This document shows positions 1,519-7,993 of a stretch of DNA of 20,059 nt, piece after piece. A program made the translations under genes and the position numbers. Origin of the DNA: a virus; IMG/VR virus record IMGVR_UViG_3300005589_000118, positions 1-20,059 of that record, one strand, 5' to 3'. The notes under the pieces were generated by a model. The model was given only the letters and a program-made list of their open reading frames with translations. It was not told where the DNA came from and searched no databases. Each line of letters opens with the position of its first letter. The stretch's first letter is position 1.

Positions 1519-1689
1519 TTATTTTATGTCAAAATCTTTGCAAGATTGATTGTATCCAGATACCCATGCTTTGTTTTTTGTTTCATCTTTATATGGTTTT
1601 TGCTTTTCTTGCCCTTCTGCTGCTGCCTGATAGCCATATTTATAAGCTAGGCCTGCTGAGTCTGTTTTTTGCGGTTGGTTTGTTGTCAT
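1519..1689 (-). CDS. Ribosome modulation factor (RMF)-like small protein
   Basis: A 56-codon frame beginning MTTNQPQKTDSAGLAYKYGY. The core A15-Y-K-Y-G-Y-Q-A-A-A-E-G, then K-P-Y, then K-A-W-V-S-G-Y matches the RMF pattern: G-Y-x-A-x-x-x-G, a P-Y pair, and W-x-x-G-(W/Y). In Escherichia coli RMF (55 residues) binds the 30S subunit and dimerises ribosomes into inactive 100S particles; phage and plasmid relatives are mostly uncharacterised. ATG at 1689 has GGGGA 6 nt upstream. This is the first gene of the leftward operon, 59 nt downstream of the operator-like element at 1749-1793. Family resemblance is read from motif spacing only; whether it binds ribosomes is unknown. Confidence 0.72.
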   Translation of the reverse strand: MTTNQPQKTDSAGLAYKYGYQAAAEGQEKQKPYKDETKNKAWVSGYNQSCKDFDIK

Positions 1690-1748
1690 GTTTCATCCCC
1701 TTTGTTTAAGTTACACCCTGATTTTAGCCAATCCATTTATTTTAGCAG

Positions 1749-1793
1749 TGGCAAAAACTACCAACTTTATTTTTATTTTGTAAGTTTTGGCCA
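1749..1793 (-). promoter_or_regulatory. Operator-like inverted repeat, copy A
   Basis: Arm 1 at 1749-1764 (tggcaaaaactaccaa) and arm 2 at 1778-1793 (ttgtaagttttggcca) are inverted with 13 of 16 positions complementary and a 13-bp spacer. Read on the minus strand, the first 20 bp facing the RMF-like gene (aaagttggtagtttttgcca, 1768-1749) are identical to 18297-18316. The element ends 59 nt before the ATG at 1689, almost the same as the 58 nt in copy B. It lies in the divergent region between the leftward and rightward operons, so it could control both. Confidence 0.7.
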
Positions 1794-1794
1794 A

Positions 1795-1822
1795 TTGCAA
1801 AGCTGAATGTTTAGGCTAGTAT
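1795..1822 (+). promoter_or_regulatory. Candidate promoter of the rightward operon
   Basis: TTGCAA at 1795-1800 and TAGTAT at 1817-1822 are separated by 16 bp, giving a plausible sigma-70 promoter next to copy A of the operator-like element. Transcription would start near 1829, exactly at the foot of a small hairpin, leaving a leader of about 98 nt. No experimental evidence; a TTGACA at 1857-1862 lacks a matching -10. Confidence 0.4.
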
Positions 1823-1828
1823 TTGGTT

Positions 1829-1926
1829 AGTGGCATGGGGCCACTGTTTAAATTCGTTGACACTGGGAAAGACTAGGCGTGCTGAGGCGCAACCCTTGGC
1901 CGACTTTTAACTAATAAGGGGTTTAT
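1829..1926 (+). other. Structured, non-coding leader of the rightward operon
   Basis: The leader opens with a perfect 6-bp stem, AGTGGC (1829-1834) with GCCACT (1840-1845), around a 5-nt loop. It then has an unusually GC-rich stretch at about 1866-1902 for this AT-rich region, with short self-complementary parts (AGG/CCT, GCG/CGC). A 13-codon frame (1835-1876) exists but has no Shine-Dalgarno. I do not recognise a named riboswitch. The downstream gene has its own good site, AAGGGG, 5 nt before ATG 1927. Confidence 0.35.
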
Positions 1927-4280: not shown

Positions 4281-6110
4281 TTACCAAGGTGATGTCATTA
4301 ATGGTAAGTACATAACAGCACCAGTTGAATCTTTTATCTCAAGATACCTATTTGCTACAAAGTTCGCAGGTGTTGTAGCTGCTTGAGATGTATATTGTAA
4401 TTTTAACCTACCATCACCTTTTGGCTGTATTTTCACATCTATATTTGCTGATGAACCTGCAACAGCTAGAGTTGGCTCGTCTGTTTCTGAAGCCCTTACA
4501 ATTAATTTTGACGAAGCGGCAGGGGTATTCTCTACCAATAACTGGCTATTACCTGTATTCAGGTCTGTTATGTCTAAACCAAACTCTGAGAAGTTTACAC
4601 GCTGCTTATTAGAACCCGCTGTATTTGTAGAAAGAACCTCACCGACTTTTGTGTTAGCTGCATTATACCAAGCCAATGATTGCCTTGTTGCCATTGCAAC
4701 AGCTACCCCTACCCCTGTTGCGCCATCAGTGCCAGCTATCGCTTCATTATGGAAGACAATGCCTTTTTCAAAGTCTGCATTCTTAGCAGGGTCGTTGCTA
4801 ATAATGCCTATAGCACAAGATGCTGTTCCAAGATTCACACCTTCCGCAGTCTCTGAAATCTCACCACCTGAGCCAAGCCATAGCGTTTGCGACTGCCCAG
4901 CATTAAATGGATTAAAAGGAAACAGTGCTCTTGTATCCCCCATGTTGGCTATATCAAGTTCCATACCAAAACAAGAAGCAGTAACTCCAGATTCTCTTAC
5001 AGCAGTACCATATAACGCCCAAGCTCCACCTGTGTGGTTAAGCTTGTTATTAACAGCAAAGCCAGATACACCTATGTCAGCGCCAGAAGTCCCAGCACCC
5101 TCTCTCCAAGCTGTTTGCACTGAACCATGAAGTCCAAGATTGCCATACCCAGTAAGGGCACTATTGTGCTCAAGATAATTAAATATACCTTCATAAAAAT
5201 CAGGGTCGCTCTCAATTGAGTCGTAATTACCTTCTGACACTATCTTCTGGTTCACACCTGCCGTGATCGAGTTTGGATTTACGAAACTCGCACCTCTTTG
5301 TACCAACCAAGTTACTTTAGGGGATGTAGGCATTGGAGGTGATGATAGAAGATACACCCCTTTAGGGATAACTATTGTCAATTCATCAAATGATGCAGAG
5401 GCAGAGTTAAATGCGCTTAACTCATCTGTGACACCATCCCCTATGGCACCAAAGGCTTTAACATTAACCACGTCACCAACCCAATCAGACAAAGCCCTAG
5501 GTGTAGTTGTGCCTGTAGCAGTAACCAATAAACCATTAGGATTAGACGGGAAGTAATTAACCCATGCGCTGCCATTCCATGTAAAAAACACATCAGAAAC
5601 AGTATTGAAGTAAATAGACCCTTCGTTTGGCGGATTTCCTAAATCATCTACAGCTGGATTAGATGAATAAGCGCCAAAGTAACGATTAGTAAAATCAGTG
5701 TATAAAGCCTCAGTTAAATCCTTAGCTGCAATAGCGTTAGCCTCAGAAGAAGCCGCCTCCGCCGCTGCATCTTGCGCGGTTTGTGCGGCATTGGCATCGC
5801 TTAAATCATACTCAGGAATATACGAAAGCTCTTTTTTATTAGCACCACGAATTACAATTGAGTAAACCGTATCAGTGGGTCCGTATAAGATACCAGTATC
5901 GGATTGATCAAATACACCATCCGAGCTGATGCCTTGCGGGTTTTCAGCTTGCTGAGATAAGGCAGCATCTAAATAGATAGCTTTAAGCGTGGAAGGGTTA
6001 TCTTCGTCCGGCTTAACGTTAGGCTGGCCAAATAACACAGAGCCACCGGATACGATCTTGCCGCCTGCTATGATTGGGTAGTTAATTGGAGCTTTTATTT
6101 GGTTTGCCAT
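4281..6110 (-). CDS. Tailspike with P22-type head-binding domain
   Basis: 609 residues at the gp9 position. Residues about 1-105 match the P22 tailspike head-binding domain (G-G-K-I-V-S-G-G-S-V-L-F-G-Q, P-x-N-P, K-A-I-Y-L-D, then Y-S-I-V-I-R and Y-I-P-E-Y-D-L). An alanine-rich helix (about 107-135) is followed by a G-S-I-Y-F-N-T...F-F-T-W-N-G-S-A-W-V motif. At about 213-232 the V-N-V-K-A-F-G-A-I-G-D-G-V-T-D-E block marks entry into a pectate-lyase-like beta helix. The rest is beta-rich and ends S-T-G-A-V-M-Y-L-P-L-M. It would bind the host surface and perhaps cleave polysaccharide; no catalytic residues can be assigned, and the distal part does not look like the P22 endorhamnosidase. The start overlaps the upstream gene (TAATG) with GAGGAAG as ribosome site. 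Confidence 0.88.
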   Translation of the reverse strand: MANQIKAPINYPIIAGGKIVSGGSVLFGQPNVKPDEDNPSTLKAIYLDAALSQQAENPQGISSDGVFDQSDTGILYGPTDTVYSIVIRGANKKELSYIPEYDLSDANAAQTAQDAAAEAASSEANAIAAKDLTEALYTDFTNRYFGAYSSNPAVDDLGNPPNEGSIYFNTVSDVFFTWNGSAWVNYFPSNPNGLLVTATGTTTPRALSDWVGDVVNVKAFGAIGDGVTDELSAFNSASASFDELTIVIPKGVYLLSSPPMPTSPKVTWLVQRGASFVNPNSITAGVNQKIVSEGNYDSIESDPDFYEGIFNYLEHNSALTGYGNLGLHGSVQTAWREGAGTSGADIGVSGFAVNNKLNHTGGAWALYGTAVRESGVTASCFGMELDIANMGDTRALFPFNPFNAGQSQTLWLGSGGEISETAEGVNLGTASCAIGIISNDPAKNADFEKGIVFHNEAIAGTDGATGVGVAVAMATRQSLAWYNAANTKVGEVLSTNTAGSNKQRVNFSEFGLDITDLNTGNSQLLVENTPAASSKLIVRASETDEPTLAVAGSSANIDVKIQPKGDGRLKLQYTSQAATTPANFVANRYLEIKDSTGAVMYLPLMTSPW

Positions 6111-7993
6111 TATTCTTCCTCGTCTTCTCTTACTAGCGGTATGCCAAGCGCAACAGCTAAAGAAGGGTAATCGGTTGATAGTAAATTGATAGCGTCTTTA
6201 ATTTCCGGACTTGACTGAACCGCTCGTTCAAATGCCTTTGCATCCTGAGAGGTCTTGCCAATCTTGGTTAAGAAGTCTGCTGTTGCTGGCCCTGCATAAG
6301 GTATTGCATTCATCATTCCCATTATACCCGCTTTATTTAATGCCTCGATAAAGAATCCAGCCGATCCTTTTGGCATCGCCCCGCTAGGTGGTACAAGGTC
6401 ATTTGCATCGTTTCTTAACTTGCTTAACTGTTTAAACTCAGTATCGGTCATTATTGACTTAAGCTTAGGCTCTAGCTTATCAAATCGCTTAGCAAAAGCA
6501 TTAGCACCAAATACACGCTCTCCTTTGATTTTACGAGTAGAAGCATTAAAGCCGCTATCAATTAAATCCATGACCATTTGAGCTTTAATCTGGTTTTTTG
6601 CCTTAGAGCCTCTTGTGCCAGCCCTATCTAGGGATTTAATCACACGAGAAAAGCTTTCAATTGGTGTTGAGTCTGTCACTAGCTTTGCATATACCTGAGA
6701 CTCTTCTATTTTAGGCAATTTAGATTGATAACTTTTATTATCTATAAGCTGGCTAGTTAAGCCTTTTTCATCAAACTCAGTCTTTAGTGCCGCGTGTGAT
6801 TGACGCGCCTCTTTAGCAGCTCTAGATATATCTGGATTACCATTCTCTTGAAGGGCTTTTGATGCCAGATCAAATTCAGAATCAAGAGCGTCTTTCATTG
6901 GGCCTGTAAACCTTGAGGTATTTCCTGTTGGGTCTGATTTTTCTATATTATTCAATCGCTTACGCATTCTCTCTGCATTTGATACGGACAACTCTTGTAT
7001 CTCAATACCTTCTTTAGCTGCGCCCTTTAATGCTTCGTCGCTAAGATCTAGGCCGAATTCAGCAATAATACCTTCTATTGCTTTTGCTTGCTGGGGGTTG
7101 GTTGACCGGAAGTCCCTAAAGTCCGCAGGGTCTGCAAAGCCAGCTTCGTAAATAGTATTGGTATCAAGTCTTACATCTATGTCTTTTGTTAGGTCCGCAA
7201 GCTTGTCATAGGCAAGCTTTCGTTTGTATTTAGAACTATTCTTTCTAAGCCTAATAGCGTCCTGAACAGACTGCCCGACATTATCCACCTCTTCTGGCTT
7301 AACACCTTCAAGGTAATCTCGAATCTCTCTAGACTGAGCAAGCTTATAACCTCGAAGCTGGTCGCCGCCTTCACTGGACTGCTCTAAAAGAAATTGCTCT
7401 GACTTTTGCTGGCCAAGGTCTTGAGTGGCCTCACCAACTGTAGACCTGATTCCTGTTTCTTTTAGAGTAGGCTCAGCCTCCGGTATTACGTTCTCTGGTG
7501 TTACCTTTTTAAGCCCTCTAGTGCCTTTCAGCCCAAGAAGTTCAAGGGTTGCTGTTGGTAGTGTTGCCGCTGCCGCTGCCGCTGCTGGACTACCAGTAAC
7601 ATCTAAGGTTGTATCACCTAGAAATCGCTCAGTTGCTGTCATGGCCTCGCCAACTGGCTGCAATGCCTCACCTAGACCTGATTGAACGTCTGCGCCTGAT
7701 GCCGATCTTGGCTGATACGTTCCACCTTCTTTTATATTAGCAATACGCTGAGACCTTTCATCAACATTGCCGCCACCAACTAAGCCAGATAAGCCAGCCG
7801 CAGCATCGGAAATAGAACCACTTAAGATAGACAAAAGGTTTTCAGCACCCCCTATAACAGGGTCGGAATCTGCTAGCTTTGCAAGGTCAGAAAAAAAGCC
7901 GCTTTTCTTTTTTGGCTCTTCTATTTCGTCAAACTGATCAAAAGGGTTTGATTCAGTCTTAACTTCATCAAATTGATCAAATACATTAGCCAT
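6110..7993 (-). CDS. Large ejection (DNA injection) protein, gp16 position
   Basis: 627 residues, close to the 609 of P22 gp16 and in the same place, directly before the tailspike. The N-terminus carries a tandem short motif, F-D-Q-F-D-E at residues 5-10 and 18-23, seen at the start of several large podovirus internal virion proteins. A glycine/alanine-rich, weakly hydrophobic stretch (about 45-75), an alanine run (A7, about residues 136-142) and long helical middle regions follow. Near the C-terminus is a hydrophobic segment (I-E-A-L-N-K-A-G-I-M-G-M-M-N-A-I-P-Y-A-G-P-A). In P22 the gp16 protein is packaged and enters the host envelope on infection. No enzymatic motif is visible. TAATG overlaps on both sides. 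Function is inferred mainly from synteny. Confidence 0.72.
   Translation of the reverse strand: MANVFDQFDEVKTESNPFDQFDEIEEPKKKSGFFSDLAKLADSDPVIGGAENLLSILSGSISDAAAGLSGLVGGGNVDERSQRIANIKEGGTYQPRSASGADVQSGLGEALQPVGEAMTATERFLGDTTLDVTGSPAAAAAAATLPTATLELLGLKGTRGLKKVTPENVIPEAEPTLKETGIRSTVGEATQDLGQQKSEQFLLEQSSEGGDQLRGYKLAQSREIRDYLEGVKPEEVDNVGQSVQDAIRLRKNSSKYKRKLAYDKLADLTKDIDVRLDTNTIYEAGFADPADFRDFRSTNPQQAKAIEGIIAEFGLDLSDEALKGAAKEGIEIQELSVSNAERMRKRLNNIEKSDPTGNTSRFTGPMKDALDSEFDLASKALQENGNPDISRAAKEARQSHAALKTEFDEKGLTSQLIDNKSYQSKLPKIEESQVYAKLVTDSTPIESFSRVIKSLDRAGTRGSKAKNQIKAQMVMDLIDSGFNASTRKIKGERVFGANAFAKRFDKLEPKLKSIMTDTEFKQLSKLRNDANDLVPPSGAMPKGSAGFFIEALNKAGIMGMMNAIPYAGPATADFLTKIGKTSQDAKAFERAVQSSPEIKDAINLLSTDYPSLAVALGIPLVREDEEE
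7563..7590. repeat. Short GCTGCC-type repeat coding for an alanine run
   Basis: Three and a half near-perfect hexamer units (gccgct) encode seven consecutive alanines in the large ejection protein. It is a simple-sequence repeat that could vary in length by slippage while keeping frame when hexamers are gained or lost. Confidence 0.5.

Follow-up and report, generated by a model that had tools for sequence, protein, structure and literature searches.

A predicted RMF-fold protein encoded by an accessory cassette at the head of a phage early operon

A small open reading frame (ORF) at the head of a phage operon raised the question of whether phages carry a ribosome modulation factor (RMF) of their own, and whether such a protein could silence host ribosomes during infection, as a first-pass annotation of this locus had proposed. 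The window, that is, the whole stretch of DNA that was analysed, is a 20,059-bp IMG/VR virus fragment from a marine phage, in which a head/portal/tail gene block occupies the (-) strand and, to the left of it, the early region comprises two divergent operons. Its P22-type coat protein is about 51% identical to coat proteins of Vibrio lentus phages.

The gene, its operon and its cassette

The features of the early region on which the argument rests are as follows.

1519-1689, (-) strand: gene of a 56-aa protein of predicted RMF fold, MTTNQPQKTDSAGLAYKYGYQAAAEGQEKQKPYKDETKNKAWVSGYNQSCKDFDIK; based on frame, profiles, predicted fold and codon fit
1696-1701, (-) strand: Shine-Dalgarno-like AGGGGA of this gene, read from the sequence
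1497-1514, (-) strand: hairpin with a stem of 7 bp closed by a GAAA tetraloop, lacking a T-run; folding energy -11 kcal/mol, z -2.5
1497-1701, (-) strand: cassette of Shine-Dalgarno, ORF and hairpin, 205 bp; one clean gap in related phages L249 and L246
1278-1487, (-) strand: winged-helix HTH_39 protein, second operon gene; 84-86% identical in relatives without the RMF-like gene
1111-1281, (-) strand: small ORF of the same operon
794-1114, (-) strand: coiled-coil protein of the same operon
577-822, (-) strand: DUF551 protein of the same operon
17-580, (-) strand: HNH homing-endonuclease-like gene (NUMOD4 + HNH_3) of the same operon
17-1281, (-) strand: remaining (-) operon genes of the window
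1690-1926, no strand: 237-bp intergenic region that separates the divergent operons; high conservation in L249 and L246
1927-3573, (+) strand: divergent operon, with a DUF7167 protein (1927-2115) first

The ORF at 1519-1689 is a genuine gene. Its frame comprises 56 codons from an ATG start, with the Shine-Dalgarno-like motif 7-12 nt 5' of the ATG, and its coding score (+0.456) is the highest of the six frames, the others remaining at or below +0.029. An identical protein is encoded by a sister contig, IMGVR_UViG_3300027820_000109. The suspicion that the ORF is no gene, or that its likeness to RMF is due to chance, may draw on its low GC content and richness in lysine, on RMF profile scores that miss the curated cut-offs, and on a tblastn search of the phage collection that returned no homologue. 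Against it stand the best coding score of the six frames together with the Shine-Dalgarno motif, the identical copy in the sister contig, a profile score well above its shuffle control, a clean cassette boundary that spans both Shine-Dalgarno and ORF, and a second RMF-like ORF at the equivalent operon position in the relative G194. We regard this very improbable reading as largely refuted.

The gene is the first of the (-) operon and follows the divergent intergenic region, in line with the first-pass annotation, which described it as heading an early operon. In the sister contig, this operon extends leftwards beyond the window end; ParB-like and PAPS-reductase-like genes follow there and, further on, genes resembling ERF and SSB, the last two named from sequence and not via a profile search; its reach to ERF and SSB supports the designation as early. 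The description of the gene as an important early product stood in part: its place at the operon head is upheld, while the absence of precisely this gene from two close relatives detracts from its importance. Within 1690-1926, a hairpin-like GTGGCATGGGGCCAC is invariant between the window and L249/L246, and, as regards the operator-like copy A of the first-pass annotation, only an imperfect inverted repeat could be made out by eye (about 1780-1794 / 1749-1762). Promoter and terminator scans remained at chance level, with no excess over shuffles, and the leader region matched no known RNA family and folded no better than shuffles (z -1.2).

The ParB-like and PAPS-reductase/DUF3440 genes of the sister contig (L002:3947-4609 and 4979-6208, (+) strand) gave weak PADLOC matches to DndC/BrxP; we take the pair to be reminiscent of IbrB/IbrA. 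PADLOC returned no defence match for the RMF-like protein.

Coat-protein relatives (64-100% identity) were collected for a comparison of early regions. Both L249 and L246 have the promoter region and the HTH_39 gene in conserved form, and exactly the segment corresponding to 1497-1701 is missing from them; this clean absence of 205 bp identifies the segment as an accessory cassette. The hairpin at its distal end, located between the stop codon of the RMF-like gene and the next gene, is the sole sequence of its kind in the window, and it is not a plain intrinsic terminator since it lacks a T-run. The syntenic operon of G194, which has the coiled-coil gene (794-1114) in common with the window, starts with a different 56-aa ORF, MNKYERDIYQSGHSAAKNGKPKSACQLKKWTELRQRHWWLAGWHDWHIENNTGIRS, which is weakly RMF-like (15.9 bits with the Pfam profile, 19.2 bits with the RMF profile described below). 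Together with the empty sites, this ORF suggests that the head of the operon tends to be occupied by an exchangeable accessory gene of the RMF fold. Among cultured phages, those closest in coat protein (Vibrio, Aeromonas) are devoid of RMF-like genes.

Homology to RMF and predicted fold

By sequence comparison, the phage protein is a distant RMF homologue. The spacing GY-x-A...G...PY...W-x-x-G, from which the RMF likeness had been read, is indeed present, and the protein is 30% identical to E. coli RMF over their alignment. The expected profile match was found with significant E-values, but below the curated cut-offs of both databases: 24.1 bits with Pfam RMF (PF04957, E=3.8e-5, cut-off 27.9) and 28.2 bits with NCBIfam RMF (NF011162, E=1.3e-6, cut-off 40). 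Because no database match reached its curated cut-off, a separate profile was built from 54 distinct cellular RMFs; the phage protein scored 25.5 bits with it, against a maximum of 12.2 bits among 20,000 shuffled versions of it and 11.5 bits for the phage protein itself with a profile of NPYxxGT-type mobile-element proteins. E. coli RMF was also its top PDB sequence match (E=0.005). Searches by tblastn with the phage protein and E. coli RMF gave no matches among cultured phages and, among plasmids, weak Rmf/CrpP matches only; a scan of species genomes with the phage protein as query returned no relative.

The fold is predicted to be the RMF two-helix hairpin. AlphaFold2, run with a 26-row alignment, placed helices at 11-24 and 36-53 (mean pLDDT 82, core about 90, first 9 residues disordered), and the top three PDB structure matches of the model were all RMF (9iot_y, 6h4n_v, 2jrm). 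RMF chains reached TMq 0.64-0.76 with probabilities of 0.72-1.00, and the good PDB matches were RMF only. The two helices anticipated from the sequence are thus present in the model, a result that is not fully independent because the alignment contained cellular RMFs; the single-sequence AlphaFold2 run yielded no usable model (pLDDT 59).

Residues kept and lost, and relation to other RMF-like proteins

Mutagenesis of E. coli RMF provides a residue-level reading of this homology. The substitutions G16A, C29A, W40A and W44A abolish ribosome binding, while R3A, K5A, R11A, G23A, P30A, G43A and R45A leave binding in place with dimers lost or nearly lost (Yoshida et al. 2021, PMC8126665); R45 contacts C1536 of the anti-Shine-Dalgarno (anti-SD) sequence and is required for dimerisation. 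Mapped through the alignment with E. coli RMF, the helix-packing residues G16, G23, P30, W40 and G43 are kept in the phage protein (G19, G26, P32, W42 and G45), as is K5 (K8). By contrast, R3 and R11 are replaced by P6 and L14 and the basic N-terminal tail has given way to another sequence, C29 is deleted, W44 has become Tyr46, and R45 has become N47. The N-terminal tail carries a net charge of +1, compared with +5 for that of E. coli RMF, while the charge of the 39-residue core is +2 in both proteins. Each of these mutagenesis residues, R45 included, is conserved throughout the 51 full-length enterobacterial RMFs of the comparison; R11 varies in one more distant cellular RMF. As judged from the alignment, the scaffold is retained, unlike the tail that contacts rRNA and the residue for dimerisation. 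Since published mutants at these rRNA-contact and dimerisation positions are impaired, the phage protein most likely builds no 100S ribosomes. The proposal of an RMF-like silencing of host ribosomes accordingly finds no support, with profile scores under the curated cut-offs, R3, R11, C29 and R45 missing and W44 replaced by Tyr.

Compared with known systems, the protein resembles E. coli RMF (PF04957, NF011162; 6h4n_v) in its two-helix hairpin of about 55 aa, its motif order and its PY-to-W spacing of 9, and differs from it in the residues above, in its scores below cut-off and in its location in a phage early cassette. It shares with the Rmf/CrpP family (NF041886; plasmids, ICEs and phages) the same two-helix motif order, mobile carriers, and G-[FY]-N where RMF has G-W-R. 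Unlike that family, it lacks NPYxxGT and has KPYKDETKNKAWVSGY, and its PY-to-W spacing is one residue shorter; its NF041886 score is 18.5 bits (cut-off 28), and the core NPYxxGTx5WxxG[FY] of the collected mobile-element members is absent from it. Small stand-alone phage ORFs with an RMF hairpin, like the present one, encode the Agrobacterium phage Milano proteins QBQ72082 and QBQ72098, the genome paper of that phage naming two such proteins, and the proteins called "ribosome modulation factor" in a viral structure library for Delftia phage IME-DE1 and Caulobacter phage CcrBL9. The Milano proteins, from a different phage, are of the NPY type, unlike the window protein, and the first of them scores above the Pfam cut-off.

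A motif scan for NPYxxGTx5WxxG[FY] found at least 120 viral stretches in at least 52 clusters at 60% identity, and among the NPYxxGT matches listed, 90 of 119 were small stand-alone ORFs. A scan for the RMF spacing added 22 viral stretches, and the exact spacing occurred in two phages, where a GcrA-like DNA-binding domain precedes the RMF-like one (L212:7961-8044, (+) strand; L213:11422-11505, (-) strand). The charge of phage RMF-like domains ranges widely, from -12 to +5. These annotated examples and many viral matches indicate that phage-borne RMF-like proteins are a known and widespread kind, so that the present gene is a modest new example and no surprise. The protein is a divergent, probably non-dimerising member of this superfamily, in which about 40 residues can be aligned, too few for a tree.

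Several further stretches were observed during these scans. In phage Milano, MK637516 43598-43699, between Milano_060 and Milano_061 and outside the listed genes save for its last bases, is a possible third RMF-like stretch. An Rmf/CrpP-type ORF of 56 aa, unlisted as a gene, occurs on Pseudomonas and E. coli plasmids (L003:1501-1668, L004:1501-1668), and the E. coli plasmid NZ_MZ513635.1 holds three copies of this type, L003:1501-1668 and two further ones. Conserved small phage proteins (L250:8982-9164, (+) strand; L248:4161-4367, (-) strand) share G..AC.DGKPH...YxRGYA.QYELEQ, the motif order of which resembles the RMF hairpin; the L248 protein scores nothing on the RMF profile.

Candidate mechanisms and what they would mean

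From a mechanistic point of view, we tentatively favour, with a probability of about 0.45, a product of an early accessory cassette that has retained the RMF hairpin and, without dimerising ribosomes, most likely still has its site of action on the host 30S subunit. A cassette of Shine-Dalgarno, small ORF and hairpin would have been inserted at the early operon head of a phage with a P22-type coat, and encodes a protein of predicted two-helix RMF fold in which the helix-packing residues are kept, while most residues for dimerisation and for the grip on the anti-SD and helix 28 of 16S rRNA are lost. The likeliest single target would be the platform of the host 30S subunit, bound by a weak, non-dimerising contact, which would consequently bias translation or compete with host RMF early in infection. 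The profiles and their shuffle control, the AlphaFold2 model and PDB matches, the residue comparison, the 205-bp indel, G194 and the operon with ERF and SSB are in line with this reading; the low tail charge, the deleted C29, the Tyr at W44, the charge diversity of the phage family and the cellular RMFs in the AlphaFold2 alignment weigh against it. So does BatR/PA3049 of P. aeruginosa, an RMF homologue that takes no part in the hibernation of ribosomes (PMC13411936), which is chromosomal, about 49% similar to RMF, carries an extra C-terminal helix and regulates biofilm architecture.

BatR/PA3049, in acting outside hibernation, also illustrates a quite plausible rival, namely that the RMF fold has been repurposed and the hairpin serves as a general small adaptor for a non-ribosomal target, which may be a host protein, or DNA or RNA next to the HTH regulator. 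The fusion to a GcrA-like DNA-binding domain in two phages, the adjoining HTH_39 gene, the loss of ribosome-contact residues and the highly variable charge across the phage family all fit such an adaptor, but the window protein scores clearly higher with cellular RMF than with the mobile type and keeps the PY-to-W spacing of RMF. That the protein is a true RMF, binding 70S ribosomes, forming 100S dimers and silencing host translation in infection, is unlikely: the profile matches, the predicted fold and the retention of K5, G16, G23, P30, W40 and G43 would agree with it, but R3, R11, C29 and R45, each of which when changed to Ala abolishes or nearly abolishes dimers in E. coli, are lost, as is W44 (now Tyr), of which the same holds, all the enterobacterial RMFs compared keep them, and an early global silencing would block the phage's own translation too. 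It is similarly doubtful that the protein is an anti-hibernation decoy, which would occupy the site of host RMF on the 30S subunit without triggering dimerisation, as the G23A and R45A variants of E. coli RMF do (PMC8126665), and would displace host RMF. If true, the ribosomes of starved marine bacteria would, on infection by the phage, stay in translation or be returned to it.

The locus offers a natural with/without pair, in which the promoter region and operon are the same, plus or minus the 205-bp cassette. RMF-fold miniproteins occur in many phages and plasmids, and what the names "ribosome modulation factor" and CrpP imply about their function is possibly wrong. The residue-level prediction made here, ribosome contact without 100S formation, bears on whether phages manipulate ribosome hibernation.
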